Below are positions 94-36,206 of a stretch of DNA of 36,206 nucleotides, piece by piece. The number at the start of each line of letters is the position of its first letter. The stretch's first letter is position 1. The notes under the pieces are model-generated. The model did no database searches, was not told where the DNA came from, and was given only the letters and a program-made list of their open reading frames with translations. The DNA is from Cohaesibacter marisflavi (GTDB taxonomy: Bacteria > Pseudomonadota > Alphaproteobacteria > Rhizobiales > Cohaesibacteraceae): positions 1-36,206 of the forward strand of contig NZ_FOVR01000022.1 in the NCBI RefSeq assembly GCF_900115225.1. Reading direction: 5' to 3'. The translations under genes were made by a program, and so were the position numbers.

Positions 94-455
94 GACGACT
101 GAACAAATCATCCATTGCAGTCGAGCTTGGTTTTGCCCGCTCTAACTTCAACACCAATCCCGCCTTAAAAGAAGCTTTAGAAATCGCGGAAGAAACACTC
201 TGCGCGGCAAGCAATTTGGTCGATGTCGCAAAACCATTGCGCGAAGCTAACGCAGCAAGAGAGAGAGCAAACGACAAAGCTAAACTGTCATCTGCCGAAA
301 GTAGCCGCTTAATGGAACGCATTGTCAGCCTTGAAGCTGAAAACCGAAATCTTAAAAACCGTCTGGCTCAATTGGAGCTTCGTGAAAAAGCCTCACAGGA
401 CTTCAATCTTCTTGCTGAAGCTCTGGAGAAGATGCATGAAGATTCAAATCAGTAA
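78..455 (+). CDS. HTH/coiled-coil protein, probably 5'-truncated
   Basis: The open frame begins at a GTG inside the repeat array and has an in-frame stop at 54-56. The first residues are therefore probably encoded by the mobile-element end, and the host gene's own start is likely lost. What remains is about 120 residues. A short helical motif (SIAVELGFARSNFNTNPALK) looks like a winged-helix or HTH recognition region. From about residue 50 on there is a long Arg/Glu/Leu-rich helix with coiled-coil character. Small HTH plus coiled-coil proteins of this shape accompany some recombinase modules, such as the TnpC/DUF6262 type, but no family can be named with certainty. The stop codon lies inside the next gene (20-nt overlap), so the two are translationally coupled and probably work together. 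Function unknown. Confidence 0.5.
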   Translation: MPGMRRRLNKSSIAVELGFARSNFNTNPALKEALEIAEETLCAASNLVDVAKPLREANAARERANDKAKLSSAESSRLMERIVSLEAENRNLKNRLAQLELREKASQDFNLLAEALEKMHEDSNQ

Positions 456-2604
456 CGTGCGCAGAAATGGCTTCCTATCCGCTCGTGAGCTGAATAGTGA
501 TGGAACCTATGTCCAGCGCGATAGAAACCTGTGCTGCGTCTTTCCCAACACCTTCTCCGGCGCAGTTCTGCCTGGATCAATCTGGCAAGTAGATGGCCCG
601 ATAGTTGAAAATAGAATCAACGTGAGCGGCAAGATCTTCGTCGAAGACCTGATGAAATGCGAGATAGTTGAGTTGGAAATGATCTCAACTAACCTCCTTC
701 AAATTTGGCTATCCAAGAACATCAAGAAAGTTGGCCCACAAAGAGCTAGACGCTTTGCCAATTATCCAGACTTCATCGCCCTTGCCCAATCCGCAGACAC
801 CAATGAACTTCTTAAAATACCCACGATGACAGCAGAAATGGCTCAAGAGATCATCGTGAAATTCCCGAGTGAGGACCAAATCGAGACAATCAATTGGTTC
901 TCTCAGAAATCTATCCCATTCAAAGTGGCATATCGCATGTGGGAGGTTATGGGGCCTGATGCAATCAGTTATGTCCAACAGAATCCATTTGACCTCACAA
1001 AGTTCGGCGTAAGATTTAAAGTCTGCTTTTCCCTGGCAGAAGATCTGGGCTTTGCATCAGATAGCGAAATCGTGTTGGCCGCAAAAGCTGCTGACGTCGT
1101 GAACCACATCTGTGCGACCACAGGCTCCACAGCAGTCAGTCATGACAAGTTCAATACAGAATGTGCCAGGAGGGGATATAATACCCCTACAAAGCTTTTA
1201 AACGCCGCTGGAGCCCAACGATCCCTTGGCTTGATCGATGGGAAAGTGATCACAGAATTGAATTACATTGTTGAGAACGAAGTGGCCAACATTCTCAAAT
1301 CATCCGCACAGCGCATCGATGGAGAAGGCCACAATCTCGCTGATTGGGAAATAGGACTATCCGACAGAAAAATCATTCTTCAAATTGACTCCTATCAAAG
1401 GCGTATCCCATACAAGCTAACTCAAAATCAGCGAGGCACAATCCTCGGAGCCATTAGATCAAAAGTGGCCCTTATCTCTGGTGGAGCAGGAACTGGCAAA
1501 ACCACCATCCTCAAAGGCATCATACATATCCTGGACCGCATATCTCCTGGCATCAATATCACCCAACTTGCCCTAAGCGGACGGGCCTCACAGCGCATGG
1601 CTGAAGCGACTGGAAGGCCCGCATCAACAATAGCCAAATTTATTACAGACATCCGCAATATGGCCGAGGAAAAAAGGCCTCAGCATTGTGTAGTCATCAT
1701 CGATGAAGCCTCAATGGTCGACATTTATAGCATGCACAAATTATTGAGCTTAATGCATCCGTCCACTCGATATCTCCTGGTAGGTGACGATCAGCAATTG
1801 CCACCAGTTGGTGGTGGGTTGGTATTCCATGCCCTGTTGGATTCAGAAGTTTTTCCAACCTTCAATCTAATGACCGTGCAACGACAATCTCAGGACAGCT
1901 TAATACATCAATTTGCAACCGCTATCCGAAATAATTCCTATTACCATCTACCTCATAGCAGGAATCCCTGCGGCATTGATTGTGCCATATCGCCTACGGA
2001 TCGCATTATCGAAATTTGGGAACATGATAGCTACGACACAATGATCCTTTGTCCCACCCGTAACGGCCCAGTCGGGGTGCGCAAGCTCAATCAAGATATC
2101 CAGTCCAGAGTGGGCAACAATCGCCCTGCCATCCCTTATTTTGACCAAGAAGAAGGGATGATTGAATTTGTCTCCAGCGAAGGTTCACGATTCCGCCTGG
2201 ATGATCCAATTTTAATCACCAAGAATTCCTATGATATCGATGTGCGAAATGGCGAAATTGGAAGATTGGTCGCCATCTTCGATGAACCCAATGAAGACGG
2301 TGCTTTTGGCATCCTACTGCTAAACAACCGACAGCTCAGCGTCGACCTATCTCTTTTGCAAAAAATGGAATTGGCCTACGCTGTATCAATCCACAAAAGC
2401 CAAGGATCGCAATGGCGAAACACTATTGTTGCAATTGACCACACATCAGATCGGATGTTGGACAAAACCCTTCTCTACACAGCAGTGACCCGCGCCACAC
2501 ATCGGTGCGTTCTTGCTTGCGACGACGAACAAATACTGCATCAGGCAGCCACAGGTGGTTCAAAGGCACTTAACCGGGATGTGGCACTTAGGTTCTTTTT
2601 GTAA
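436..2604 (+). CDS. RecD2-like SF1 DNA helicase
   Basis: 722 residues from ATG 436, chosen because a TGGAGA ribosome site lies just upstream and the encoded N-terminus looks genuine; a longer frame from 322 would run through the upstream gene. Residues about 1-90 look like an OB-type region. Residues 100-145 contain a helix-hairpin-helix stretch (QRARRFANYPDF, LLKIPTM). The helicase core follows: Walker A GGAGTGKTT with K355, Walker B IIDEAS with D423-E424, motif III GDDQQLPPVGGG, and the C-terminal SIHKSQG near residue 651 with TAVTRAT. This order matches RecD2/TraA-type 5'-3' helicases. No relaxase or RecBC partner is present. It overlaps the preceding coiled-coil gene, and an otherwise solitary RecD-like helicase beside restriction and Mokosh genes suggests a role in defence or element maintenance (inferred). 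Confidence 0.8.
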   Translation: MKIQISNVRRNGFLSARELNSDGTYVQRDRNLCCVFPNTFSGAVLPGSIWQVDGPIVENRINVSGKIFVEDLMKCEIVELEMISTNLLQIWLSKNIKKVGPQRARRFANYPDFIALAQSADTNELLKIPTMTAEMAQEIIVKFPSEDQIETINWFSQKSIPFKVAYRMWEVMGPDAISYVQQNPFDLTKFGVRFKVCFSLAEDLGFASDSEIVLAAKAADVVNHICATTGSTAVSHDKFNTECARRGYNTPTKLLNAAGAQRSLGLIDGKVITELNYIVENEVANILKSSAQRIDGEGHNLADWEIGLSDRKIILQIDSYQRRIPYKLTQNQRGTILGAIRSKVALISGGAGTGKTTILKGIIHILDRISPGINITQLALSGRASQRMAEATGRPASTIAKFITDIRNMAEEKRPQHCVVIIDEASMVDIYSMHKLLSLMHPSTRYLLVGDDQQLPPVGGGLVFHALLDSEVFPTFNLMTVQRQSQDSLIHQFATAIRNNSYYHLPHSRNPCGIDCAISPTDRIIEIWEHDSYDTMILCPTRNGPVGVRKLNQDIQSRVGNNRPAIPYFDQEEGMIEFVSSEGSRFRLDDPILITKNSYDIDVRNGEIGRLVAIFDEPNEDGAFGILLLNNRQLSVDLSLLQKMELAYAVSIHKSQGSQWRNTIVAIDHTSDRMLDKTLLYTAVTRATHRCVLACDDEQILHQAATGGSKALNRDVALRFFL

Positions 2605-3028
2605 CCGCAATATTTATTCCTTAACCACAAATTCTTCAGCTCGCGAGACGACAATCTGGAAGACTTTCCAAATCTGGCCGAAATCTCGGTGGGATATCCC
2701 GTCACTCGAACAAAAACGTGCAATTGGTTTTGATTGGTGTTTGGACAATCCAAGGCAGCAGTGCAAAGTGCCGAAAGTAAGATGCGGTAACCAACCCTAT
2801 CAAAAAACGATAAAAGCGGGAGAACTGAACCGAAAACTAGATATATTTGCGTGATATCTGTTTGGCCGCGTCTCGGTTCGAGCGGACCGCCAAGTGTCAA
2901 GCCGAACTGAGACGCATTGGCCCATCGGGCCAATTTCTAAGAAATGGGCGATATCTGTCTTCTGGTAACGCGGATTCCCGGTTTTTGTACCGCCAGTGAT
3001 GACGGAGTTTCTAGAAGCTGTCGCCTCA
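2605..3028. other. Intergenic stretch with two inverted repeats
   Basis: No credible gene is seen between the helicase and the antitoxin. The stretch holds a 13-bp inverted repeat with one mismatch (2868-2880 with 2903-2915). A perfect 8-bp stem with a 3-nt loop follows (2916-2923 with 2927-2934). The block is flanked by the direct repeat GATATCTGT (2853-2861 and 2950-2958), so it could be a small decayed mobile element of about 100 bp. The stems lack a clear U-run. No PIN/VapC toxin reading frame was found downstream of the Phd-like antitoxin here. Confidence 0.4.
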
Positions 3029-3265
3029 TCATTCCTTCATGTCGAACATGGCTGCCAGTTCGTCATCTCCATCATGGATACCTTCGCCCATTGAAATACC
3101 GGCTTCCTTGTAGAGGCCCAACCTGCAAGGATTTGGATCAACCTCGTATTTGATAAGTCGCACGAGCGGCTCACCCGCTTTGGTGATAATCACTTCTTCG
3201 CCGGCAACGCTTCTCTCGACAAGCTCCGAGAGTTTGGCTTTTGCTTCGAGAAGATTGACTTCCAT
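3029..3265 (-). CDS. Phd/YefM-family antitoxin without adjacent toxin
   Basis: 78 residues. The N-terminus reads MEVNLLEAKAKLSELVERS, then GEEVIITKAGEPLVRLI, the signature of Phd/YefM antitoxins, which dimerise and bind their own operator. The C-terminal half (residues 45-78) resembles the toxin-binding tail of antitoxins paired with VapC/PIN toxins. AGAGGTG upstream of ATG 3265 serves as ribosome site. The toxin gene normally follows directly. Here the 400 bp downstream on the same strand have no PIN-domain frame, so the gene appears orphaned. It sits 57 bp after a HigA-like gene and may be co-transcribed with it and with the Mrr gene. Confidence 0.8.
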   Translation of the reverse strand: MEVNLLEAKAKLSELVERSVAGEEVIITKAGEPLVRLIKYEVDPNPCRLGLYKEAGISMGEGIHDGDDELAAMFDMKE

Positions 3266-3322
3266 GTTACACCTCTGAATTTCTCTGTGCTATTTCGCAT
3301 TCCGACAGTGATGACGGGCAGG

Positions 3323-3607
3323 TCATTTGACTGCATCGCGCCGCAGTTCCAAAAGATCATAATCAGATTGCAGCCCGAGGAAAAAGCCCTCAGACAGACC
3401 AAAGTAGCGAGTAAATCGTCGATCCATATCTGCAGAAATCGCTCGTTTTCCAAGAACGATCTCGTCAATTTGGCTGCAAGGTGCATGAACGGCTCGTGCG
3501 AGATCGTCCCGGCTCAGTTTCATAGGCTTCAGAAACTCTTCCAGCAAAACTTCACCAGGATGAGGGTTTGGCAAATGATCCGCCGGTATTTTCGATGATT
3601 TCGGCAT
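3323..3607 (-). CDS. higA: HigA-like antitoxin (XRE family) without adjacent toxin
   Basis: 94 residues from ATG 3607, preferred over an upstream start at 3637 because AAGGACA lies at the right distance. The sequence HPGEVLLEEFLKPMKLS, followed by an HTH (DDLARAVHAPCSQIDEIVLG) and a RYFGLSEGFFLGLQ tail, is the standard HigA/VapI arrangement. HigA represses its operon and neutralises the HigB ribonuclease. higB normally lies immediately upstream, but that position is taken by the Mrr gene 44 bp away and no HigB-like frame is seen. Either the toxin was lost, or the protein now regulates the mrr-higA-phd unit (inferred). Confidence 0.85.
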   Translation of the reverse strand: MPKSSKIPADHLPNPHPGEVLLEEFLKPMKLSRDDLARAVHAPCSQIDEIVLGKRAISADMDRRFTRYFGLSEGFFLGLQSDYDLLELRRDAVK

Positions 3608-3651
3608 TGCTCTGTCCTTATTCGCGCCGGGGAACATTCTGTTCGCCGGTT

Positions 3652-4584
3652 CTATCCGTCTTCAGAAAAGAAGTCTTCGTCCAGGCGCTGAACCTGAATG
3701 GTGCGATAGGCCCGGGTACCCACACCATGTTCAATCATCAGCTCCGCCAACCGGACTCCGTCTATTTGTATCACGCGTTGTGGCAGGCTTCTCGTATATT
3801 TCGTCGCACTGTCAGTGAAGGATGAGGTGGTCACGAAAACACCTTTTGTTGCGCCGAAGCCAACCAGAGAGCCAACAAACGCCTGCATATCAGGCCTTCC
3901 GATCTTGTTCGACGAAGCATGCCTCTTGGCCTGAACATATATGCGATCAAGGCCCAGTCGATCTTCATTAATGACGCCGTCCACGCCACCATCCCCAGAT
4001 CTGCCCAATTGCTCTGCTGCGTTTTTATGAGACCCGCCATATCCCATGGCAATGAGAAGATCGACGATTACCTGCTCAAAGAATGCTGGAGAATTCTCCC
4101 GAATTCGATCAAGTAATTCGGTTTGAAGAGCCGAGTTAAGGGCTGCAAAGGCATCTTCAATCTGCTCCTCTGGGGTCGATGCTTGTTTCGCTGTATCGTC
4201 ATGATATTTCGAACGTGTGGAGGCAGCATTGCCTTGCTTCTTGTTTGCCGCATGGTAAGCGGCAAATTGTGGGATGGACAAAAGGTGTTGATAGTCCAGG
4301 CTCTGCGGATTTGTTGCCAGCAGTCGTTTGCCTGCATCGGACGCGATGAAACGTCCTCGTGCTGGACAATCAACCAATCCAGCTTTGTGCATATAATACT
4401 TCGCCCAGTGTATCCTATTTTTGAGAATACTTTGGCCGCCACTCTGCAGCATTCTTTCGCATTCTGCAGCTGACAGTTCAAAGTCGACAGCAATCTTCTC
4501 GGCAAGAGGCGGAACCCGTTGTTCCGCCTGAGCCGCATAACGCAAGACCGGCAGCATTAATGATTGATAGCCTGGAATGGTCAT
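3652..4584 (-). CDS. mrr: Mrr-family restriction endonuclease
   Basis: 310 residues, the usual length for Mrr. Residues 1-100 (MTIPGYQSLMLPVLRYAAQ, with RFIASDAGKRLL) form the N-terminal Mrr winged-helix domain. Residues about 165-295 are the Mrr_cat PD-(D/E)xK nuclease: FFEQVIVDLLIAMGYGG, then GRSGDGGVDGVI with the metal-binding Asp, YVQAKRH as the Q-x-K motif, and KGVFVTTSSFT and VIQIDGVRLAELM as the following strand and helix. Mrr enzymes cleave modified, usually methylated, foreign DNA. No cognate methyltransferase is present, as expected for a type IV enzyme. It heads a short minus-strand unit with two antitoxin genes and lies next to a Mokosh operon, which makes this a defence island. 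Confidence 0.9.
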   Translation of the reverse strand: MTIPGYQSLMLPVLRYAAQAEQRVPPLAEKIAVDFELSAAECERMLQSGGQSILKNRIHWAKYYMHKAGLVDCPARGRFIASDAGKRLLATNPQSLDYQHLLSIPQFAAYHAANKKQGNAASTRSKYHDDTAKQASTPEEQIEDAFAALNSALQTELLDRIRENSPAFFEQVIVDLLIAMGYGGSHKNAAEQLGRSGDGGVDGVINEDRLGLDRIYVQAKRHASSNKIGRPDMQAFVGSLVGFGATKGVFVTTSSFTDSATKYTRSLPQRVIQIDGVRLAELMIEHGVGTRAYRTIQVQRLDEDFFSEDG

Positions 4585-5268
4585 CTTGCCGTGCGCTTAT
4601 GGTCTTGCGATTCCAATGATTTTTGACACGATGGTCTGCTTTGGCCTTTTACACGAGACCATGCTGTTTCAGTTGATTTTACCTTGAGATTCCAGCTCGA
4701 CATTGCGCCCCCTACTCTTCTCAATCCAAGGAAATGGTCACCAAGAATGACTTGGTGACCGGGGAGTTGAGAAGCCGCACGAAGACGACCGCTACAGCCT
4801 TTAAGCCGGAGCTCTGAACATGCGCTGAAGCCTCCCCGACCAAAGATCGAGGAGATGTCATTTCGGCCGACATCGGCCGCTTCGTGAGGGGTTCTCACGC
4901 CCCGAGATGGTGAATATTCCATCCTGCTGGCAACTTAATATGTCTTGGATAATTGTGAAAGGGGAATGATCAGAAAGATGGGTACGTTAAATGCCTATAT
5001 CAGCATCCATTCATCGCGGTTAACACTCTCCGAAAAATCCACGAAACATCACCGCAATAATATAAGGGGGCACTTTTGCACGCCGTTTACCCCAACAGAG
5101 GCGTCAAGTTTCAATCCTGATGAACTGTAACGAGCATTGCCTCATCGAACCGACAAGGCAACTCTTTTGATTGCACGAAGCACGGCTACACTTTGATCGC
5201 CGACATGGCTCCAAAGTGCGGCTGCTCATTGAGATTCAATGATTACCGGTCCTTACTATGTCGCTTAG
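4585..5268. other. Intergenic region between mrr and mkoB
   Basis: About 680 bp lie between the mrr start and the mkoB end. A minus-strand frame (4581-4922) has no recognisable family and low-complexity character, so it is not called. A short plus-strand frame at 4945-5130 is likewise unconvincing. The notable element is the long hairpin at 4717-4774, listed separately. The mrr promoter must lie here, but no clear -35/-10 pair stands out. Confidence 0.4.
4717..4774. repeat. Long inverted repeat upstream of mrr
   Basis: A perfect 10-bp inverted repeat (GGTCACCAAG at 4736-4745, CTTGGTGACC at 4751-4760) has a 5-nt loop. It is extended by CTTCTCAA (4717-4724) pairing with TTGAGAAG (4767-4774). 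It lies about 130-190 bp upstream of the mrr start. It has no U-run, so it is not a typical terminator. Possible roles are an operator, a mobile-element end or a structured RNA. The structure is seen; its role is unknown. Confidence 0.6.
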
Positions 5269-7008
5269 TCAAAAAGTCACAGCCTCGAATTTCTCAAGTA
5301 GGAAGCTCGCAAGGCCTGGACCTTCAAAATAGAAACCGATCTCGTCCAGTGGATTGTCTTCCGAGCCCGACTGAGAACCCCAATTTAAGGTGCTGACTAC
5401 GACATGGTCTTGATCCCAGACAAGGAACTTTGCGTGTAATTGCGGTTTGGGCACACCTGAGAGCTCGACGATGCCATGCAAACGCTTCTTGTGTTTTGAC
5501 ACATGGCCACGTTTTACGGGACCAGATCGCCGGGAGTAGTAAATTCGAACATCATCAAGCCGCCGACCGGCAATCTCGGCCGGATCAAACAAAGCCGGCA
5601 CCATATTGGCTCCAACTCTATTTGTGCAGCACACGAAGCGTTCCTGCGCCTGATGTGCTGCCACTCTCAGAAGACGCTCGTGATCAGCCGCATGCAGTAT
5701 TGTCAATCGAGCCATCGAAGGTCGCTCGTCAGCGGACGACAAAAGCCTAAATTTCTGGCGCCTCAGTTCTGAAGAGATGAATTGAAGTGTTTCCACGGAG
5801 CGACTGGCCTCCGAGAGTTTTGCGACGATCTCGCGCAACAAATCCAAACCGATCGCTACAGCTTGAGATTCACGCAGCTCCGCGGAAACCTCAACGGCCG
5901 AAAACGGTGAAGACAGCCAGTTGCAGGATCCCATGACTAAAACGACACCATCCTGGCCGTCGTCCGCTGCTAGGAACTTAGCGTGACTGCCGACAGGATC
6001 CCTGTGAACCAAAAGATACCCTCTCGTCTGCCGAACCTTTGAGAGCCTCAGGTAGAGCTCTTGCATCGCGGCTGCATTCTTGGCTCTGTCAAGCGACGTA
6101 CCGAAGAACAAGTGGCATCTAACACCGCGTCGACAGGCATCTTCGAGCGCGCGCCAAATACGCTCTCGGTTCTCGATGCCTATTTCGTCAGACTGCGACG
6201 CGACAAACGTTGAAAGGACAAACACATGCGACTTTGCGGTGCCCACAATTTCTTCAAAACGCTGTAAATGCTGTTCAGCGCCAACAATGAGGTTACTACT
6301 GCCGAAGGATGTTTCAATAGAAAGAGATTCGGGCGGCTTCGGAGCTGCTGCCGTGGGCAAAACACCGGTTTTTATCGTCGCCTTAAGCGCTTTTACCAGT
6401 TGGTCGCTGGCTCCTTGGGGCAGAATGCCGTCATTGACATCATCGAGGTTCAAAACCAAGAATTTGCGTTCTAAAAACGAACTATTCGCCTGAACGCCCC
6501 TCAGCCATTCTCCCGGTCGAAGTGTGCCTGCCAGGAACTGGCTAACACGTTGCATCATTGAGTGGTCTGTTTCGGGAGCTTCGATTTTAGGGAAGGCCAC
6601 GATCGCTCCACTGTCCGGCAGCTTTGATACTGGGATTATGTCTACATCTCTAGTCCTGAAAACTGATAGTCCGACCTTCTCGAAAACTATGCTAATGCCA
6701 ATTTCTCGGTCAGATTTTCGTTCAGGCAGTGCCCGTCCTGAACGAATGAAGTCGTTTCCAACACTGCTTGTTGCTAGAACCGGCTGCCGAGACAGCCGAA
6801 CTTCAACCAGACCGAACTGCATTAGGCGAGCGACTGTGGAACTGACAACCTGCCGCGGGATATGTAAATTTCCAGCAACGTTGGCGATAGTACCGGGAGT
6901 TTGATCGAGCGACAATAGCACCATTTCCTCTATCGGGCTCCAACCCCAGATCCGTTGAACGATGCCTGGTGCGCGATATTGCCATGCCGGAATGTAGATA
7001 TTTTTCAT
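5269..7008 (-). CDS. mkoB: Mokosh MkoB-like PLD-family nuclease
   Basis: 579 residues. The first ~90 residues contain a winged-helix-like region (GTIANVAGNLHIPRQVVSST, VARLMQFGLVEV). Two phospholipase D-type HKD half-sites follow: HAKFLAADD with a downstream SCNW (residues about 340-361), and LHAKFLVWD with STLNWGS (about 522-545). Each has the H-x-K of the catalytic pair, and the trailing N and D/E residues fit an active PLD nuclease fold. The gene starts inside the mkoA stop (ATGA overlap, 4 nt), so the two are co-translated. In type I Mokosh, MkoB is the PLD effector working with the MkoA helicase. A PLD protein of a DISARM-type system is the alternative, but the other DISARM genes are absent. 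Confidence 0.78.
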   Translation of the reverse strand: MKNIYIPAWQYRAPGIVQRIWGWSPIEEMVLLSLDQTPGTIANVAGNLHIPRQVVSSTVARLMQFGLVEVRLSRQPVLATSSVGNDFIRSGRALPERKSDREIGISIVFEKVGLSVFRTRDVDIIPVSKLPDSGAIVAFPKIEAPETDHSMMQRVSQFLAGTLRPGEWLRGVQANSSFLERKFLVLNLDDVNDGILPQGASDQLVKALKATIKTGVLPTAAAPKPPESLSIETSFGSSNLIVGAEQHLQRFEEIVGTAKSHVFVLSTFVASQSDEIGIENRERIWRALEDACRRGVRCHLFFGTSLDRAKNAAAMQELYLRLSKVRQTRGYLLVHRDPVGSHAKFLAADDGQDGVVLVMGSCNWLSSPFSAVEVSAELRESQAVAIGLDLLREIVAKLSEASRSVETLQFISSELRRQKFRLLSSADERPSMARLTILHAADHERLLRVAAHQAQERFVCCTNRVGANMVPALFDPAEIAGRRLDDVRIYYSRRSGPVKRGHVSKHKKRLHGIVELSGVPKPQLHAKFLVWDQDHVVVSTLNWGSQSGSEDNPLDEIGFYFEGPGLASFLLEKFEAVTF

Positions 7009-10000
7009 CTGGGCAGGCTCCCGTCTTCATCGACCGTGACGATGGTAACACCCCCTCCAGCCTCTTGGTAATGCGCTTTCGAAAGTTCCTCGATTTGTTC
7101 GAGCATCCTCCTCAGGAAACCGAAGTCTTCTTTCAACGAGTCCGGATCGATTCCGTCCACTGCGTTCCGAATGAACTGGCGGCTCCCTGCCAAGATCAGT
7201 TTATGTTTTGCCCGACTAAGTAGTACATTCAACCGTTGAGGGTTTTTCATAAATCCCAACGCGCGTGAACCAACGAGTACATTGTTGCGAACAAGACTTG
7301 CCGCAATCACGTCCGCCTCGCTCCCTTGGAAACTGTCACTTGTGAAGACGAACTTGCCGTCGTCTCGTGGACTTGCAAAGCCAAAAAGCGTCCTATTGGC
7401 AACGTCTATTTGAGGCTTCAGCAGACGCCTCAAGTAACTCACTTGCCCAGAATACGGAGACAGAACAGCTAAGGTTGGACGTTTTTTTCCGGCTTTCAAG
7501 ATAGGTCTAAGCTCTTTAAGGGCCGCCAGCAACGCTACTGCCTCAGATTCATTGCGATAGGACCGTTGCACCGAGTGTTCGAACGCACGTCTTTTGAGGA
7601 CGCTCAAAGAGGGCATATCGAGAACTACGATAGGCGAATTGGGGAAACCATTTATCGCTTCCACAACGCTTTCGCGCTGCTCCACACGTGCGGATGAAAC
7701 AAGCGTTCCATTATAGAATGTGTTTGATACCAGATCGCTTATTACCGGATGCATGCGGCTTTGTTCGCGTAGCATATTTGCAATCGAGCTCGGACGGTTT
7801 GTATCGTTGGTTCTTTCGGCTTCCCGATCAGCAATCGACTTGAACGGCTCTTCAAATCTGCTAGATATGGCCAAGACGTCTGCCAATAGTAGATGATCCG
7901 CGTTGAGCGCATCAAGAGCCACGTCAATCTCATCGGGCAAATCGGAGATGGTCGACAGCTTTTCCTTTGCTCCCTTCAGCAGTTCTTCGGAGCGTTCAGG
8001 GGTATAAAATTTCTGCCTCTCTTCTGCATCGAAGGGTGAGAGCTGGTTGTGGTCGCCAATCATTACGCGGCGGTTGCCCAATAGAAGTGCGCCAATCATT
8101 TCCGCGCCGTTCGCACGCGCTGCCTCCTCAATGAAGACCCAGTCGAATTGCTCTCCATCTGCGATCATCTCCTCTAGAACTGAAGATGAAGTCGTTGCCA
8201 AAGTGACATCGGACGATCGAAGCACTAGATTGTCGGTGTCCCGTAAGGATCGCTCTGCCATCGCTTGTTCCGATTGATCGACAGGACTTAGGGACTGATT
8301 GATCCGGGAAAGCTGGTCTTGCATCACTGCAGCGTTCTTGGCATTGGGCTTTGCGATTGACCGCAGCAGCCCAACCGTGTCTCGCCTCAAAGTGCTTTCT
8401 TCTTCACCTACGCGAGACCGTTCCACGCGAACAACAATCGTCGATTCCTCAGGTAGGAACTTTCTAAGCTCTTCCTCCATGTGAATGAGCGTTTCGTGGT
8501 TCTGTGCGGATACCAACACTCTTGCATCGGGTGTTTGTCCCAAGATGCTTTTGATGAGATGTGAAATGAGAAAGGTTTTTCCGACGCCCGGAGGACCAAC
8601 AACCACATTTATTGACCTGCCGGCGACAATCGATGTCCAAGCCTCAACCTTCGAGGGATCCATCTCTGCATCAGCTGGCGGAGCGCCTGGCGCGGCTATA
8701 GCGCGTAGAGCTTCGTCCATTGCGACTTGCGTTGGATCATCTAATGCTCTGAGAAGTTCCAGATTCGATCTCGCGGCAACAATGTTCTGCAATCGACGCC
8801 TGATTGCGCGATCTGCCCCTTTATCCTTGCGGGGTCGAAGATAAAGAAATTGCCCGGCAGGAACCGTGATGTTCGTTGTGAAAGCGAACGCCACTTTGCC
8901 ATTGATAAAGTCCCTACCCTCGTAGCTAAGTTCCGGCAAACGCTCTCCGCCCGTTGCTAGGTTCGAAGATTTGGAAACCGTCCAGTTTGCCTTTCCATCG
9001 TCATAACGAAGTTCGCGGCGCAATGCCTCGGCCGCAGGGCGCAGTTTCATAGTTTCCCGTTGCTGATCTCTGGGGGCATCATCGCGCGATAAGAGCCACA
9101 CCACATCCTGCTCAGTATTCGGCAAAGAGAGAACTTCAACAGGGTAAAGTCGGAACTGTTCTCGCAATAGCGTGAACGCTTCCAAAAGAATGAGCGCAAA
9201 CCACATCGGTTCATCATTCACAGGGCCCGACGTGCAAACGTTTGCAGAAAAATCGCGCCATCGTTTTACACCTGGTCCGAGATTTTGGACGCGCTGTTCC
9301 GCACTTGCGCGATTCCTCGAAAGGTGAATGCGGTTGATGATATCTTTGGCCCCCAGCATCCAATCGTTGGCGTGCCTTTTATGAGCATTCTTTATCATTC
9401 CGACCGTATCGCTGACAATTTTCACATTATAGACCGCAAGGTCGGTGAGAATTCGAACGTTATCCTGATCTTCTGGAACCAGCCGAACACCGGCCGATAG
9501 TAGATCTTCCGTGACAAATTGCGCAATCGCGACAGAATCAGTTGCCGGAATGGTGCCAGACGAAAGCGATGGCAAATCGCTCTGCAGAGCGCCCCGCGAA
9601 GGATAAAGGATGAGTTCCCCATCTGAACTAGACCCAACCCGACCAAGTTCCGTTATGATCTGCTGCAACTCCTCCAGCACGACGCTACCGTCGAAAAGCT
9701 GAAATTGCGGCGGATTTGCCAAGCGATCGATCATCCGTCGTTCGATGGTGAGCAACGACGGGGAATTCTTGCCGTCAAGATCGAGAATGGATGCAATTAC
9801 ACGAGCAAGATCGATCCAGTCCTGCCTAAAGGAAACCGCCCCCGAGGTGCGCAAAAGATGTCCTGACTCTCCAATGCTGCCATCAGCAATATGGACACAT
9901 GCCTCGATGCCTCCCAGACGGTAGTCAACACTGTCATCTGATTGAGAGAAGATCGTATATTGGCTTACCGCACCATGGACAATGCCAGCACTATGGCAGA

Positions 10001-10433
10001 GTGCTAAGGCTTCGGCAATTCGCTTGATATTACTCCAGAACGCGACTCTACTGCCACTGGTCAAGAATCGGCCTTGCTTCGCCCTCCTCCGCGCAGTACC
10101 CGCAACCGGACTGCCTGGATCGACCATGACGATGGCGATTTCCTCGGCGTCCTCAGCAATCTCCAATACCTCTACCAGAACCTCACGAGCCTGTCTTGAT
10201 GAGAGAACTCGTCGAATTCGCCTCAAACCTCGAGCGATAATGGCTTTTAAATCGTCGTCGAGTGTTGTGCCACTCTTTCTAAATAAACGGACCAAATACG
10301 GCTCACCGTCGTCATAACCCGTAGCCAATCGAAGATGCGAATCCCACAGGCCTTCGATGCGGGCAAGCGAGTCTTCCGCAAAATCAAAACGTGCCTCCAA
10401 AGATGCTCTGTTGCTCTGTTTGTACTTTGCCAT
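7005..10433 (-). CDS. mkoA: Mokosh MkoA-like kinase-domain/SF1 helicase fusion
   Basis: 1142 residues. Residues 1 to about 270 resemble a Ser/Thr kinase fold: the ALALCHSAGIVHGAVSQYTI stretch aligns with the helix before, and the loop of, an HRDxKxxN motif. However, the loop reads H153-G-A, with Ala for the catalytic Asp and Thr for the Asn, and the DFG site reads LGG, so it should be a pseudokinase. Residues about 600-1100 are an SF1 helicase of the COG1112/UPF1 type: Walker A GPPGVGKT (K619), Walker B WVFIEEAA (E769-E770), GDHNQLSPFD, EQSRMHPVISDLV, DSFQGSEADVI and RLNVLLSRAKHKLILAGS. This kinase-like plus COG1112 helicase architecture followed by a PLD gene is that of type I Mokosh, which protects against phage. 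MkoA probably binds phage nucleic acid or an intermediate and triggers MkoB (inferred). Confidence 0.8.
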   Translation of the reverse strand: MAKYKQSNRASLEARFDFAEDSLARIEGLWDSHLRLATGYDDGEPYLVRLFRKSGTTLDDDLKAIIARGLRRIRRVLSSRQAREVLVEVLEIAEDAEEIAIVMVDPGSPVAGTARRRAKQGRFLTSGSRVAFWSNIKRIAEALALCHSAGIVHGAVSQYTIFSQSDDSVDYRLGGIEACVHIADGSIGESGHLLRTSGAVSFRQDWIDLARVIASILDLDGKNSPSLLTIERRMIDRLANPPQFQLFDGSVVLEELQQIITELGRVGSSSDGELILYPSRGALQSDLPSLSSGTIPATDSVAIAQFVTEDLLSAGVRLVPEDQDNVRILTDLAVYNVKIVSDTVGMIKNAHKRHANDWMLGAKDIINRIHLSRNRASAEQRVQNLGPGVKRWRDFSANVCTSGPVNDEPMWFALILLEAFTLLREQFRLYPVEVLSLPNTEQDVVWLLSRDDAPRDQQRETMKLRPAAEALRRELRYDDGKANWTVSKSSNLATGGERLPELSYEGRDFINGKVAFAFTTNITVPAGQFLYLRPRKDKGADRAIRRRLQNIVAARSNLELLRALDDPTQVAMDEALRAIAAPGAPPADAEMDPSKVEAWTSIVAGRSINVVVGPPGVGKTFLISHLIKSILGQTPDARVLVSAQNHETLIHMEEELRKFLPEESTIVVRVERSRVGEEESTLRRDTVGLLRSIAKPNAKNAAVMQDQLSRINQSLSPVDQSEQAMAERSLRDTDNLVLRSSDVTLATTSSSVLEEMIADGEQFDWVFIEEAARANGAEMIGALLLGNRRVMIGDHNQLSPFDAEERQKFYTPERSEELLKGAKEKLSTISDLPDEIDVALDALNADHLLLADVLAISSRFEEPFKSIADREAERTNDTNRPSSIANMLREQSRMHPVISDLVSNTFYNGTLVSSARVEQRESVVEAINGFPNSPIVVLDMPSLSVLKRRAFEHSVQRSYRNESEAVALLAALKELRPILKAGKKRPTLAVLSPYSGQVSYLRRLLKPQIDVANRTLFGFASPRDDGKFVFTSDSFQGSEADVIAASLVRNNVLVGSRALGFMKNPQRLNVLLSRAKHKLILAGSRQFIRNAVDGIDPDSLKEDFGFLRRMLEQIEELSKAHYQEAGGGVTIVTVDEDGSLPR

Positions 10434-10452
10434 CTGCTGTCCAATCTAAATT

Positions 10453-10488
10453 TATACAAATTATAATTGGATTCGCGTTTTAGTTGTA
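10453..10488 (-). promoter_or_regulatory. Possible mkoA promoter
   Basis: On the minus strand a perfect TATAAT (10465 down to 10460) lies 27 nt before the mkoA start. The hexamer 17 nt upstream is TACAAC (10488 to 10483), a poor -35 match. The surrounding 80 bp are markedly AT-rich. The ribosome site just before ATG is weak (GGACAG), which would keep expression low. Confidence 0.35.
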
Positions 10489-10731
10489 TATTTTTCGGAA
10501 TTTGCCGGAATTTTCTGTACGTAGACAAGCAAATCATTTTTAACTTCCAAAAACAAAACCCTGAGTTTGACTTAAATCTAAGACAATCTTTGGTTATCTT
10601 CATGTGTTGTTGAAAGCAAGTTTTCTGATGAGTAGGAGGAGTCGATAATTGGAAGCGTTCGACATCATTGCAGGATCTGCATCAATAGTGTCCCTGGCCA
10701 TCTCCGTCATTGCGCTAGTCAATGTTCATCA

Positions 10732-11040
<309 letters not shown>

Positions 11041-14379: not shown

Positions 14380-15080
14380 ATGGCCGGTATGCGTATCAAG
14401 GGTTTGATGCCCAAGACACAGACGATGTATCTGCGGGCCATGCAGGAGTTCACACGCTTCCTGGGTCATTCACCCGACAGTGCAACACCTGAAGAATTGC
14501 GGGCTTTCCAGCTTGATATGAAGGATCACGGCGTCGGGGCTGCGACCTATAACAATCGGCTGACAGTGTTGAGCTTTTTCTTTTCGACCACTTGCCCGTG
14601 CCCCGAGATGAAGCGACACATGCGTTATCAGAGAATGGCCAAGAAAATACCCGTTGTATTGAGCGTTGAAGAAGTCGTAGCCATTCTGGAAGCGGCCCCT
14701 GGACCTGGCTTGAAGTATCGCGCGGCATTCAGCGTGGCTTATGGTGGAGGTCTACGAGCGAGCGAAGTCGCCCATCTCAAGATCAGTGATATTGACAGTG
14801 ACCGGATGCTGATCCGGATTGAGCAAGGTAAGGGCCGCAAGGATCGACAAGTTATGTTGTCTTCGAGCCTGCTTGAACTCTTGCGTGATTATTATCGGGA
14901 AGCTCGGCCGAAGGGGGGGGGCTGTTTCTCGGTCGCAACCGCATCGATCCCATCTCGACCCGGCAATTCAACCGGGCTTTTGGCGTTGCCTGCAATTTTG
15001 CGGGTATAAGCAAGAAGGCCTCACCCCATATCCCTCGTATGTTGGGACGAAGCATCAGCATCCGATTAACGGCCAGGTAG
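14380..15080 (+). pseudogene. Tyrosine recombinase (IS91-associated type), frameshifted and truncated
   Basis: The first frame (14380-14921) encodes the SAM-like N-terminal domain (KTQTMYLRAMQEFTRFLGHS) and the start of the catalytic domain (VVLSVEEVVAILEAAPGPGL, YGGGLRASEVAHLKISDIDS with the first catalytic Arg, IEQGKGRKDRQVMLSSSLLE with the catalytic Lys). At a run of nine G (14913-14921) the frame shifts. The other frame then continues the family sequence (LFLGRNRIDPISTRQFNRAF, GISKKASPHIPR) until about 15030. The remaining catalytic box (H-x-L-R-H, later Tyr) is absent. Such recombinases usually sit next to an IS91-type transposase, which is missing. The gene is dead. Confidence 0.85.
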
Positions 15081-16854: not shown

Positions 16855-19800
16855 TTACCCCCCCTTTTGCCTTTGCAAATCGAATTGCAAGCGATGATTT
16901 TCTCCATCCAGTCGCAAGCTTACGCTGTTGTGAAACGCCGGATACGGTTTGCCATCTAGAGTAGCGGTCGATCTGCCCTCTCTCTCTACATAAGTCTGCG
17001 AAACGGCAATGTCATAGTCGGTCTCATCAACTCTTACACGCAACTCAAAGCCCCGCCAGTTTCTCGGAATGCAGGGAGCGATAGTCAGTGTTTTTCCTTC
17101 GCGTCTCAAGCCAAGAATACCAGAGATGCCTGCCTGATACATCCAGCCGGCCGATCCAGTGTACCAGGTCCATCCTCCTCGTCCGACATGGGGTGCGACA
17201 GAATAGACATCTGCAGCAATCACATAGGGTTCCACCTTGTATCGCTCTGTTGCCTCTGGTGTTAGCGCATGATTGATGGGATTTACCAAAGCCAAAAGTG
17301 AGTGGGACTTTTCGCCCTCATCCAGCTGTGCAAAAGCAAGGATCGCCCACATCGCCGCATGGGTATATTGGCCGCCATTCTCTCGTAACCCCGGCGGGTA
17401 GCCCTTGATGTAACCAGGATCGCTGGCAGATTGATCGAAAGGCGGCGTGAACAGCAGCGCCAACCCCTCGTCCCTGAGAACAAGATGTTGTTCAAGGGAA
17501 TGCATGGCCACTCGCGCACGATCCCCATCTGCCGCTCCAGATAAGACAGCCCATGATTGGGCGATGGAATCGATTTTACATTCTTCACTAGCAGCAGATC
17601 CCAGCCAAACACCGCTATCAAAGGTTGCTCGGCGATACCACTCCCCATCCCACGCAATATTTTCAAGAGCCGTTAGCAAGGAGGTTGCATGCGAGGTCCA
17701 GAGTTTGGCCCGTTCTGGATCTCGTTGTTGGGCAATCGGAACGAAAAGATAAATGCTCCGCAAAAGCAGCCAACTGAGCCAGACGCTTGTTCCCTTACCT
17801 GCTTCACCAACACGGTTCATGCCGTCATTCCAGTCGCCAGTGCCGATCAGCGGCAACCCGTTTTCTCCCGTCAAAGCCAGACACAAATCCAGCGCACGGG
17901 CGCAATGCTCAAACAGGCTTCCTGTTTCGTCGGAAATTTCCGGTACGAAGAAGGCGTCATGGGTCCCTGCTGCCAACAGAGGACCATCCAGAAACGGCAC
18001 TTCTTCATCGAGAATGGCCTCATCCCCGGTTTGGACAATGTAGGTTGCCGTGGCAAAGGCCAGCCACACCCGGTCATCGGAAATATGCGTTCGGACCCCT
18101 TGCCCCGAATGGGGGAGCCACCAATGCTGAACATCGCCTTCCACGAACTGCCGCCCAGCAGCAAGGAGAAGGTGCTTTCGTGTTTCCTCCGGTTGAGAGA
18201 AGGTCAGTGCGATGTGGTCCTGCATCTGGTCTCGGAACCCATAGGCTCCACTTGCCTGATAAAATCCCGAGCGCGCCCAGATGCGGCAGACCTGCGTCTG
18301 ATAGAGGAGCCAACCATTGAGCATGATGTCCATGGCTCGATCGGGGGTTTTAACCTGCACCGCTCCCAGACTATCCTTCCAATACCGTTGAACCTCATTA
18401 AGACAGGCATCGATATCACTAGCGCGGTATCGCGTGATAATTTCACGAGCGTTCTCCCTGGTGCGGCTTTGCCCAAAAAGGGAGACAAAATCGTGGCTTT
18501 CGCCCGGTTTCAGCACGACGGAGATGCGCTGTGCTGCGCACGGATCAAGGCAGGCCCCCATGGCACCAGAAAGTGCGTTTTTTCTTCTCATGGCTTCCGG
18601 ATGGGCAAGGCTGCTGTTTCGTCCGATAAAGCCGGTTCGGTCGGCCGTCCATTCCTGCTGAAGACCGTTAAAATCGGCAAATGCAACCCTGTCGGGGAAG
18701 GCTGTATTCCACGGTTTGGTTGCAAACAGAGCGCCGGTTTCTTCATCTCGCTCGTTTAGAATGAAAGGCTCGGACTTGGCTCGGGATGAGCCCAGAACCC
18801 AGTCGTTATAGAGGGTGACGGACAAGTGCCGCCTTCGGTTGGACCTGTTGGTCAATGTTAACTTGGAAATCCTGATCGGATCTGACAGAGGAACGAATTG
18901 CACCAGATTGGAATGGATCCCTCCGGCGGCATGCTCGAACCTGCTGTAGCCGAACCCGTGGCGCGTTATGTAGGTGCCTTTGTCACGAATGGGCTGAGCC
19001 GTTGGACACCAAACCGCACCATTCTCCTCATCGCGGATATAAACTGCCTCACCCGCAGGATCAGCCACAGGATCATTGGACCATGGCGTTAACTGGTTCT
19101 CGCGGCTATTCTCTGCCCAGCAATATCCACTACCAGTCTCCGATACCTGGAAGCCGAAATGTGGATTGGCAATCACATTGATCCATGGTGCAGGCGTTTT
19201 GTCGCCATCCTTCAGGGTGATGACATACTCTGTACCGTCTTTGTCAAAGCCTCCAATGCCGTTGAAAAACTCCAGATCTGTTGGCTGCGGTAAGAGGTCT
19301 TGCTCAGAGATCGTCACAGGAGTAAGAGATGCATTGTCAAAGTTTGTCGTTGATGACGATTGGTCCGATTGGAAAATGCGGCCCAATTGCTCCGAGAGAG
19401 ACCCGTGATTGGCTACAAGCGACGCGCGCGCGACAGAAATCAGGAGGGATTTCGCTTCCAAACTGATCTGGTCTGAGCGTAGAAGCAAGACAGATCCTTG
19501 TTCATTTTCATTGCGGATCTGAGACGATCTCATCGCAGTTTGTATTGCGGACTGCAAGTCCTGAATATAGCTGGTTGAAAGATCGTTCAATATGATGAGA
19601 TCAATATGAAGCCCTTTCATACGCCAATAGGCATAAGCACGCAGTAGCTGTCTCACCAATGGCATACCATCCAGATCCGATATTCGTAAAAGGACAATGG
19701 GAAGGTCTCCGGAAATTGACAAAGGCCACAGAGCTGATTGGCGACCTGCCCCGCTGGCGACCACTGAAGCAGACGCACGAAATCGGGAATCGGAATAGAG

Positions 19801-22800
19801 AAGTGCCGAGGCCAAACTCTGGAAATCTGCCGCTTCACTTGAAGATACGTTCAGGTGACGCAATTGCACCTGCGCCTGTGTCCAGGACAGGGTTTTTGCA
19901 CGATCATAGGAATTGTGATCATGATGCTTATCAAGCAAATTCATCAACTCGGAACGAGACGCCGCCACCAGCGTCCAAAATGTGATGTACAGTGTTTCGC
20001 CGGGGGCGATGCTGACCCGATGCCTTAAGGAAAAGATCGGATCGAGAACAGTGCCAGTCGTATTGGATAGCGAAGCCTTGTCGTTTAAAGCCTTCGCGTT
20101 GGCAAGCGAGCGATTACGCCCCAAAAACTTCAGCCTGTCCGTTTCGTATTGTGGCTCTTGCGCTATTTCCCCTTCTACAATAGCGAAATGACAGACCCAG
20201 ATTTCCGGCTCATCTGGTGAACGACGGCGGCGATTTGCCAAAAGACCGCCAAATTCGGGCAGATATTCCGTTTCAACAAACATCTTGGAAAAGACCGGAT
20301 GAGCGGCATCCGATACCGGGGAAGCAAGAACCAGCTCGCTATAGGACGTGACTTCAATATGACGCGCTCGTAGCCCCGCATTGGAGAGCGTTATCCGTCG
20401 CACTTCACCATCATCTTCACCCGAAACCAGCACATCCATTCGGCAGGAGAGCAATCCGTTGCGGCAGGAATACTCTCCATAATCCTCGGCAAAGACCGCT
20501 TGCTGTTGTTTCAGGTCTCGTTTGGCCAAATGACCGGCAGGAGACCAAACAGAACCGGAATCGACATCTTTGAGGAAGATGAAAGAACCGAAATTTTCAT
20601 GGGTAGAATCCTCACCCCAGCGCGTGATGGCAATCTCACCCCACCGGCTGTAACCGGCGCCTCGCGCTGTCAACATCACGCTATAGCTGCCATTTGAGAG
20701 CAAATGAGTAATTGGTGCCCCAATCAGTGGAGACTTGAAGCGCCGGATTGTGGGCTCGTTGAATATGGCTTCTTCGGTTGAGGCTTTCACTTCTTCGGCG
20801 CCGGGATGGACCAACGACACATAACGCGGTCTGCGTTCTTGCAGCAAAAGCTCGCTGGCCATGATGAGTGGATCACTGTGAAAACGGGATCGCATGAGCC
20901 CATCATGCATAACGTTGGCGATGGCAACAATGGTCATGCCCTGATGATGGGCCATCACGTTGCGGACGATTGCCACTTTCTGCCCGTCGGGCAATCGGGA
21001 TTGCGTGAAATCCAGGGCCTCATAAAATCCGTAAGGTCCGCATCCTCCCATATCAGCTATCCGATCATAGTTGATCGAGGCATTGCGGGCGTCGAACATC
21101 GCGGCCAACCCCGTCGCATAGGGTGCAATCACACGGTTCTCGGAAAGCCCGCGCTTCAATCCCAAACCGGGAACCCCAAAATTGGAATATTGATAGGTGA
21201 ACTCGATATCCCGGGCGTTAAACGCAGATTCAGAGATGCCCCAAGGCAGGTTCAGCTTTCTGCCATAGCCTTGCTGAAGCGCCACAATGCGGCGATTGGT
21301 GTCATTGAGAAGGCTGTCAGCAGGGGCCTGCATCACCAAGGAAGGCATCAGATATTCAAACATGGACCCTGACCAGGAAACGAGGGCAGACCCGTTCTTG
21401 ACTGGTGTCAGTTGTCGACCAAGTCTGAACCAGTGGCGTGTTGGAATATCCCCTTTTGCTATGGCTACAAAGCTCGCCAGATTGGCTTCGGAGGCGAGAA
21501 GATCATAGCAATTCTCATCAAGCTTGTTCTCGGCCGGTGCATAACCGATGGAGAGCAGCTTCCGCTTTTGGACAAAGAGGAATGTGAAATCCATAGCCAA
21601 CGCCATGGCTCTCGCTTCATCAGCCAGAGCGTCCAAGCGGAGGCTCAAATGATCCCGTACCTCTGGCGAGGCGGAATGATCCCTTTCAAACTCGCGGATT
21701 CTGTTTGCAAGGGCTGTGGTCCAATAGACCAAGTCTGGCATACGGTCTTTTTCCGGGATGACGGAAAGCTCATTTGCCAGGACGACCGATTTTCTGGCAA
21801 TGCGGCCCAATCTTGGCGCGATTACCTCTAGGTCCTGATCCCCATTCAGTCCGGACTTGAGTTCTTCATAGAGCAGGCCAAGGCGTTGGGTGCTGGCAGA
21901 CTTGACCATGACGGCCTCAAAGGCCTCAAGCGCCAGCATGAGCGTGTCGTTCATCCCCATACGCACGGCGACTATGGGTAAGTCGGCTTTCCATTCAGTA
22001 CATGCTTTTGACAGAGCGATCAGGTGACCAGCAAGGTTGCCGCTATCCACCGTGGAGACATAAGCCGGTTCGAGAACCTTCAAGTTGGTTGTGTCATACC
22101 AATTGAAGAAATGACCACGGAATTGCTCCATGCGACGCAGGGTTTCAAAGCAGGATTCCAGCCGTTCGACCGTCTCGCTTTTTCCTGCCCATCCGAAATC
22201 ATAGGCCGCACCAGCGGATAGAAGATAAAGCCCGATATTGGTCGGAGATGTCCTGTGTGCGATGACTGGCTTGGGGTCTTCCTGAAAATTGTCAGGTGGA
22301 AGCATATTGTCAGAGGGAGTAACGAATCTTTCAAAATAGCGCCAGGTGCGGCGTGCAATCGCGCGCAGGCGCTCTTTCTCACTCGGCGTTAATTCGGTGC
22401 TCTTTGCCTTGTCAGATGTGCGGCTGATCTGAAAGGCAACGAGAGGAGAGATAAGCCAAAGACAGGCAAAGAGTCCTGTGATCGGCAATGACTGCAGGGA
22501 TAAAAGGGCCACGCCCGCGATCATGACAAGGCCCAACACTGTTCCGCCGATCATTAGTCGGTAGAACCCCGAAAGCTTCAGTTCACACGCAAGCTCTGCC
22601 TGAGCCGCCGTAACCCACTGCAGCATGTTGCTGTGTGTCACATAGAGCCTCGTGACTGACTTTATAATGGCCCGTCCCATGATCGCGGCCTGATGAGGCA
22701 GGAAGACGAGTGACAACAAGGTCTTGATTGCCGCTGCATTGAATTCGGCCCCCAGCATCTGGAAATGGCTACTGATGCGTATCCCCATATTCTTGGGAAT

Positions 22801-25362: not shown

Positions 25363-25555
25363 TGTAACCCTTTCGCACTGTGCCACTGGTGTGACAAAGC
25401 AATGCAGAAACCTATGGCAGTAGGCAGTCATTTCGTTTTTGAAAACTAGAGGACAACAGTATCGATCAGCTTCTTTCCATACGAACGCACAGCGTGAAGA
25501 CCGGATCGCTTGCCAAAGGTTATCTATTCAAGCTATCAGCCTTTTAAAATTCGGC

Positions 25556-33896: not shown

Positions 33897-34565
33897 GTGA
33901 CGGGCTGGTTACGCCACCGGGATTATGCAGAGCAATCGGAACGTTGTATCCGATTGCTGAATGAGGCCGATCCTCATTGTACAACCGGGTTTAACAAAAC
34001 CCATAAGACCAGACAACGGCGCGTGCTTTATGAATATCATGCCTGGTCCGGGCAAGAAGTCCTGATCGAAAAGATCGTAAACAAGGCGGGTATTCAAATT
34101 GCTCGATGTCACCAGGTCGGTGATACGTCCAATATCGCACTCGAGATTCCCCTTTGGATGTTTGATCGGCAGACTTGTTTGTCGGTTCAAGTATGCCATT
34201 ACCCACGTGTCGATGTGTCTGGTTTATCAGCGCTACATTTTCTTCTTGCCCAGATTGCCAAGGCCAGTGAACTCGATTTGTCTTCGAGTGCCCATGGTTT
34301 GAGCGCAGACTTTATGTCTGGTGATCAGAATCAGGGAGGTGATAATGCGTCGATTTCAACCAAGCCCCGAGCAACAGTTAAATCTATTCAGTCCATTGGA
34401 GGGACCGTACCACCCTCAGACGCCGCACTGGCAAACGCTGCCGCAGGAGACGCGCATCAAAATAACCAGATTAATGGCGCGAATGATGATGGAACACGGA
34501 GCCAATCACGCGTCAAAAGCAAGCATTGGCCAGGACATTCCACTCTTGGAGAAGGAGAGCGGTAA
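33897..34565 (+). CDS. Protein encoded upstream of a large serine recombinase
   Basis: 222 residues from a GTG with no strong ribosome site. The N-terminal part ([38 protein letters not shown]) looks like a folded domain, followed by a strand-rich part ([20 protein letters not shown]), a helix ([15 protein letters not shown]) and a Ser/Asn/Gln-rich tail. The tail from 34345 overlaps the next small ORF in another frame, so it may not be fully native. The stop overlaps the recombinase start (TAATG). Probably an accessory protein of the recombinase module; family not named. Confidence 0.55.
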
Positions 34566-34572
34566 TGTCTGA
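34345..34572 (+). CDS. Small accessory ORF of the recombinase module
   Basis: 75 residues from ATG 34345 (GGAGG 6 nt upstream; an in-frame start at 34321 is less likely). A Gln/Pro-rich N-terminus ([20 protein letters not shown]) is followed by a helix [20 protein letters not shown]. Short proteins with this P-x-E-T-R...LLARLL-type helix commonly precede large serine recombinases in alphaproteobacteria. The gene is nested in the C-terminal part of the previous gene and overlaps the recombinase start by 8 nt, giving a tightly packed three-gene unit. Confidence 0.7.
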
Positions 34573-35906: not shown

Positions 35907-36206
35907 TGGTCCTGCTATTTCGACCAAATTTTAGCCTGAATAAGGTGGATCTGATTATCTGTTCAGGCAGCCAGTTTTGTTGTTCCATTCATCGTGTTGT
36001 AGGCCTCATTCGGGGTCAGAATGCCATGGGAAGAATGGGGGCGTAGTTCGTTATAGTAGGAGATCCATTTTCCAATGCCAGCCCTTGCTTCTGATCCCGT
36101 CTCAAATGCATTGAGATAGATGCACTCGTATTTGATAGATCGCCAGAGCCGTTCGATCATCCGGTTATCGACCCAGCGCCCACGTCCGTCCATGGAGACC
36201 TTCACT
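35907..36206 (-). mobile_element. IS3-family insertion sequence, partial
   Basis: The end of an IS3-family element lies near 35907, where plus-strand sequence changes from recombinase coding to TGGTCCTGCTATTTCGACC; IS3 elements begin with TG. The transposase gene (orfB) enters from the right side of the window. The other end and any target duplication are outside the window, so the exact boundary is an estimate. Confidence 0.7.
35963..36205 (-). CDS. IS3-family transposase OrfB, C-terminal part
   Basis: 80 residues, with the gene's 5' part beyond the window. [40 protein letters not shown], then [20 protein letters not shown] is the C-terminal half of the rve/DDE integrase fold; the Glu in MIERLWRS is the third catalytic residue. 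Identified as IS3 family by these conserved blocks. The stop lies 56 bp inside the presumed IS end, the usual arrangement. Confidence 0.9.

Follow-up and report, generated by a model that had tools for sequence, protein, structure and literature searches.

A probable type I Mokosh operon with a predicted pseudokinase in an exchangeable defence slot of Cohaesibacter marisflavi

Type I of the anti-phage system Mokosh is described, in a passage of one source (PMC11672841), as having one gene for its helicase and another for its PLD nuclease, together with an extra serine-threonine kinase (STK) domain, and type II, MkoC, as a single fused protein. A statement in a second source (PMC11291487) has Mokosh degrading viral transcripts, and one published table (PMC10952713) lists NERD and PLD-like domains under type I. 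Here we analyse a two-gene locus, mkoA-mkoB, in a 36,206-nucleotide stretch of the Cohaesibacter marisflavi genome (contig NZ_FOVR01000022.1, positions 1 to 36,206; hereafter the window). We consider it probable that this locus is a type I Mokosh operon with a short MkoA, borne on an exchangeable cassette that occupies a defence slot in the chromosome and working through the pseudokinase, helicase and PLD mechanism proposed below. The two genes and their parts are as follows.

7005 to 10433, minus strand: mkoA, predicted pseudokinase plus UPF1-like superfamily 1 (SF1) helicase, 1142 amino acids (PADLOC PDLC03920)
9633 to 10406, minus strand: mkoA residues 10-267, protein-kinase fold, HRD changed to HGA at residues 153-155 (predicted model, fold matches, motif tables)
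7164 to 8636, minus strand: SF1 helicase core of mkoA, residues about 600-1090, Walker A motif GPPGVGKT at 613-620 (Pfam AAA_11, AAA_12; UPF1 the best PDB relative)
7005 to 7008, minus strand: overlap of the mkoA stop and the mkoB start, 4 nt (ATGA; open reading frame coordinates)
5269 to 7008, minus strand: mkoB, winged-helix-like N terminus plus PLD domain, 579 amino acids (PADLOC PDLC03922)
5962 to 5985, minus strand: first HKD motif, HAKFLAAD, MkoB residues 342-349 (motif search)
5413 to 5436, minus strand: second HKD motif, HAKFLVWD, MkoB residues 525-532 (motif search)

An earlier note on this DNA had placed two open reading frames at 7005-10433 and 5269-7008, both on the minus strand with a 4-nt overlap, and had called them type I Mokosh; the coordinates agree, and both genes match the PADLOC Mokosh models along almost the whole profile, which bears out the identity. 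MkoA matches PDLC03920 with E=1.1e-218 (residues 28-1120 on positions 17-1103 of 1112) and MkoB matches PDLC03922 with E=3.6e-88 (residues 2-574). No other helicase-PLD system fits better: outside the MkoA and MkoB models, the best PADLOC matches were MkoC (8.9e-15) and DpdJ (9.7e-10) for MkoA and MkoC (3.6e-11) and DrmC (9.2e-8) for MkoB, and these, like mad8, are far weaker and local only. Type II was rejected as the better identity because the helicase and PLD parts of MkoC match the window proteins weakly and locally and the window holds two separate reading frames plus a pseudokinase rather than a fusion. DISARM was rejected because the DrmC model NF038319, which resembles the PLD half of MkoB, gives MkoB 43.9 bits, well under the cut-off of 133. 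Set against type I with a short MkoA (PDLC03920 with PDLC03922), the window is the same in domain order, gene order, overlap and sizes, and no structural difference was found, although the window protein lacks the residues that the STK label implies. The separate adjacent PLD-family gene of type I is present in mkoB, with nuclease activity predicted only. Overlap of the two genes, seen in 19 of the 23 loci compared, suggests translational coupling. These matches support assignment of mkoA-mkoB to the short-MkoA lineage of type I Mokosh, an already-known two-gene anti-phage system.

The kinase-like N-terminal domain reported in the earlier note is confirmed as a fold but not as an enzyme. The predicted structure of MkoA residues 1-267 matches the protein kinase fold by fold comparison and by profile-profile alignment, so that the STK domain of type I is present as a fold, though very probably not as an active kinase. 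Active serine-threonine kinases carry K72, D166, N171 and D184 (protein kinase A numbering). At the positions of the ATP lysine, the HRD aspartate and the catalytic-loop asparagine the window protein has R, A and T, and so lacks these active-kinase residues. The loss extends through the lineage: the HRD aspartate is substituted in all 22 short MkoAs examined (by N in 6, S in 5, G in 4, A in 3, R in 3 and H in 1), and so is the catalytic-loop asparagine. The ATP lysine is kept in 12 of the 22, is Phe in one and is Arg in the nine-member subclade that includes the window, in which the helix-C glutamate position is aligned with Gly or Ala. In the profile-profile alignment, DFG reads GIE in the window and GFE in most relatives, with Gly at the aspartate position in 22 of 22. 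Pfam Pkinase gave no match to the window MkoA at E<=0.01. An active kinase in the window MkoA was rejected on the absence of the catalytic residues, and the kinase-like domain of the short lineage is very probably, as judged from sequence, a pseudokinase. The 22 exclude L058, in which a gap of Ns in the contig breaks the frame (the HRD aspartate is missing in its visible portion as well; its MkoB is kept among the 23), and G401, a second genome of the genus, is not counted separately from the window within the 22 or 23 because the two loci are 99.8% identical. STK_L029 was omitted from the kinase reference set, and the hhalign set comprised 19 short MkoAs, with L035, L039 and L042 omitted.

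The C-terminal part of MkoA is an SF1 helicase of the UPF1 type, as the earlier note had proposed: it carries Pfam AAA_11 and AAA_12, its best PDB relative is UPF1 (E=1.3e-42), and Smubp2, Sen1 and Dna2 are also among the nearest. UPF1, Smubp2 and Sen1 are eukaryotic helicases of RNA decay and termination; they have the SF1 helicase core in common with MkoA, and we know of no kinase-like domain or PLD partner in them. MkoB shows a PLD fold over residues 223-579 (predicted structure, fold comparison), with both HKD half-sites intact, which bears out its earlier description as a PLD-family protein with two such sites; two HKD motifs are present in 21 of the 23 short-lineage MkoBs. On this basis, MkoA and MkoB may be cotranslated and form one complex or machine, in which the UPF1-like helicase would engage phage RNA or unusual DNA/RNA intermediates. 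Instead of phosphorylating, the pseudokinase would serve for docking or as a switch, either holding the system off or passing on a signal. MkoB would be the nuclease effector, its two HKD half-sites making one PLD active site, and may be positioned by its winged-helix N-terminal part.

Some results pull the other way, on both proteins. For the kinase-like domain, in alignment by MAFFT alone, 15 of the 22 short MkoAs, the window's included, have an aspartate aligned to that of DFG; we judge this register wrong because its aspartate precedes strand 8. The predicted model of MkoA is poor overall (predicted local distance difference test 52, mostly below 60 outside the kinase part); across residues 11-270, 19 of 26 ten-residue blocks score 62-86, with residues 181-200 at 34-38. 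One relative, L064 (G446:C62), has an intact kinase (HRD, N, DFG and K all kept) plus a helicase, matches Pfam Pkinase (3.7e-28) and the PADLOC PD-T4-6 kinases, and matches PDLC03920 over nearly its full length, so that some proteins called MkoA by this profile have no dead kinase. The first 300 positions of PDLC03920 also match many ordinary kinases, at up to 142 bits, and the training set of the profile may therefore include intact kinases. L064 is thus an exception to the rule that a full-length PDLC03920 match means a pseudokinase; its contig stops short of a partner gene, and on the tree its helicase falls apart from the short group and joins another long branch, which makes its exact placement unsure.

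It might be argued from such cases that the system is the same but that the domain is an atypical active kinase with unusual residues, phosphorylating MkoB or a phage protein. The kinase fold is retained, the ATP lysine is present in 12 of the lineage's 22 MkoAs, L064 falls under the same profile, and CASK is among the PDB sequence matches. CASK is an atypical kinase that is Mg independent. Against this stand the missing HRD aspartate and loop asparagine in every short MkoA, the substitution of both the ATP lysine and the helix-C glutamate in the window's subclade, and the lack of a Pkinase match in the window, whereas L064 matches strongly and the relative L101 marginally (6.6e-8). We regard an atypical active kinase as very unlikely and retain the pseudokinase.

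On the side of MkoB, the contrary results are that L103 has one HKD motif and L105 none, and that, although the nucleases PLD3 and PLD4 are among the top fold matches, equally high scores go to phospholipases (PLD2) and to the F13 protein, so that the fold leaves the substrate of MkoB unfixed. MkoB could on that account be a membrane phospholipase that causes abortive infection and not a nuclease. PLD3 and PLD4, however, lie within about 2 Z, in sequence MkoB is related to DrmC and to the PLD part of MkoC, its partner is a nucleic-acid helicase, and the type I protein is termed a PLD nuclease in a passage of PMC11672841. A phospholipase is accordingly an unlikely reading, and a nuclease is the one we adopt.

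A second form of type I has a longer MkoA. When a tree of 36 rows is built from the helicase part only, the 22 short MkoAs group together (100/100) and 8 long MkoAs make up a second group (100/99). The long proteins, of 1501-1674 amino acids as read, match PDLC03921 in all six scanned, have an HGD[LI]xPxN kinase loop in 8 of 8 and carry NERD in both of the two scanned. The gene downstream matches the PADLOC MkoB model PDLC03923 in 3 of 3 scanned (427-525 amino acids), and no HxKxxxxD motif was found in any of the eight long-lineage MkoBs examined. Thus the form defined by PDLC03921 and PDLC03923 shares with the window the UPF1-like helicase, the kinase-like region and a partner directly downstream, but differs in its HGD-type loops, its NERD domain, an MkoB without an HKD motif and a separate place on the tree. 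The chances seem evenly balanced that type I Mokosh as called by PADLOC comprises two anciently separate machines: one with a dead kinase regulating a UPF1-like helicase and a two-HKD MkoB nuclease, and one with HGD loops and a NERD nuclease domain in MkoA and an MkoB that has lost its PLD motifs. On that view, nuclease and kinase functions would have shifted from one subunit to the other, with the pseudokinase serving an anti-phage helicase as its regulatory domain. Five of the eight long MkoAs (L093-L100) have two tandem kinase-like loops, HRDI.. followed by HGD.., and in 4 of 6 scanned the N-terminal part also matches BREX PglW.

The system itself is ordinary; its underappreciated feature is the predicted dead kinase, together with the testable two-lineage reading. 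Type I Mokosh has been described with a serine-threonine kinase (in part of PMC11672841), yet the domain is predicted to be dead in 22 of 22 members of this lineage, which corrects a working assumption. If the kinase is dead, hunting for phosphorylation targets is the wrong experiment, whereas a pseudokinase switch can be tested by mutation. We found no paper pairing "Mokosh" with "pseudokinase" in a literature that lacked the original description of Mokosh.

The operon lies in a position that varies within the genus. In G401 it sits on a contig of 5.39 Mb and is therefore chromosomal. Homology between the window and G387 ends at 4970 and restarts at 10793, within a resolvase gene, and the same breaks are seen against G395, in which the right-hand element is inverted. 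The Mokosh cassette therefore spans about 4971-10792, essentially the two genes. The features of the slot are as follows.

4971 to 10792, no strand: variable cassette holding mkoB-mkoA, roughly 5.8 kb (homology breaks against G387 and G395)
3652 to 4584, minus strand: mrr, type IV restriction endonuclease (PADLOC 4.5e-103; Pfam Mrr_cat, Mrr_N)
3323 to 3637, minus strand: higA antitoxin (TIGR02607, 82.5 bits, cut-off 47.7)
322 to 2604, plus strand: RecD2-like helicase, beyond the Mrr module as seen from the cassette (TIGR01448, E=4.7e-106, 355.6 bits, under the curated cut-off of 500)
10729 to 11019, minus strand: serine recombinase (resolvase) gene, interrupted where the cassette ends (Pfam Resolvase at residues 4-76; the homologue in G387 has 185 amino acids)

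Counting that of the window, 8 of 18 genomes of the genus contain at least 1.9 kb of the module of mrr and higA (about 2993-4970); it matches at 84-93% in six genomes without Mokosh, and some match is found in 13 of 18. In this genus the module (window 2857-4970; L120, L122, L123, L124, L125, L126) repeatedly borders a slot whose defence content varies. On its mkoB side lie Mokosh in G000 and G401, Gabija in G387 (GajA 7.8e-275, GajB 9.2e-237), another GajA-GajB pair in G392 (5.8e-215 and 1.9e-172), HerA-DUF4297 in G393 (NF042944, 854.2 bits, cut-off 850; NF042945, 365.9, cut-off 300) and, about 2 kb off, EruA in G394 (1047.9, cut-off 1000). The systems of these last four congeners all lie within about 2 kb of the module. 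G395 has a DUF3644/PDC-S19 candidate beyond the inverted resolvase element, and the two proteins scanned in G396 included no convincing defence system. The earlier note had placed the operon in a defence island with Mrr and two antitoxins. Mrr is borne out by both PADLOC and Pfam; one antitoxin, HigA, stands, but no second was recognised, the three other small reading frames having no Pfam match. The island itself is strengthened because congeners carry other known systems beside the same Mrr module. A defined exchangeable slot in one genus, made up of the Mrr module, a variable defence cassette and a resolvase element, means that further systems may be read by position.

Within the genus, 4 of 18 genomes matched MkoA, at full length in two (G000 and G401, with identical proteins) and at 26% over residues 948-1083 only in the other two. 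Among 346 genomes sampled at the level of the order, 8 had a profile match at E<=1e-90, both lineages combined. By tblastn, MkoA matched 42 of 72,556 plasmid records, 36 with at least 80% query coverage; 35 of the 42 were typed conjugative. Most came from Agrobacterium (25, including many near-copies) or Rhizobium (9). The nearest plasmid relative is on Aminobacter pSR5 (74.5% identity), and the closest named relatives, among the matches listed, are Hyphomicrobiales. The earlier note's word "uncommon" therefore holds for the genus but not for the lineage, which is common on rhizobial conjugative plasmids. An MkoB-aligning gene lies directly downstream in the ten plasmid regions opened of the 42; three of these ten have annotated defence neighbours (Hachiman, CBASS and Shedu, one each), and transfer genes adjoin in two. 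No match at E<=1e-10 was found by tblastn in 50,697 phage records, and a phage-borne origin was rejected for lack of one; at least two IMG/VR contigs hold relatives, one of them the mkoA-mkoB pair. A blastn query with window 7005-9000 found, at that sensitivity, no E. coli relatives by DNA.

The plasmid records, most of them conjugative and some with adjoining transfer genes, could suggest that the helicase-PLD pair is decayed or does not serve defence, with a part in housekeeping or in plasmid maintenance, and that it lies in an island only by coincidence. The motifs and reading frames are intact, however, both genes have specific PADLOC matches, the Mrr module is accompanied by Gabija, HerA-DUF4297 or EruA in congeners, and the locus is not conserved in the genus, being full length in 2 of 18 genomes. 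We hold such a role to be extremely unlikely and keep to a defence operon.

Several smaller features surround the two genes. A small membrane-protein-like reading frame (10649-10876, plus strand) has its start in the cassette and is cut at the edge, 10793; it may be what is left of a gene that adjoined the operon in the donor. That this edge holds a conserved third gene was rejected, as the first 48 residues of the truncated frame matched only copies of the same locus among the loci compared. In Aminobacter pSR5, a 381-amino-acid gene (L035, 17153-18298) overlaps the end of mkoB and is a possible third operon gene; it has no Pfam or NCBIfam match. At the other edge, a 113-amino-acid reading frame (4581-4922, minus strand), without a Pfam or NCBIfam match, overlaps the start of mrr, and reading frames of 113-153 amino acids occupy this position in G387, G393, G394 and G395. 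The RecD2-like gene lies beyond the Mrr-HigA module in the window, G387 and G395. To the right, the flanking chromosome (LysR, from about 11.9 kb) is matched in 8 of 18 genomes when that of the window is counted, and for one of these the match covers only 76 bases. Further mobile DNA is indicated by a tyrosine integrase (14380-15009, plus strand) and a large serine recombinase (34526-36046, plus strand). Between them, at 16855-25431 on the minus strand, is a 2858-amino-acid GH94/glycosyltransferase protein, whose domain make-up we take to be that of a cyclic beta-1,2-glucan synthase.
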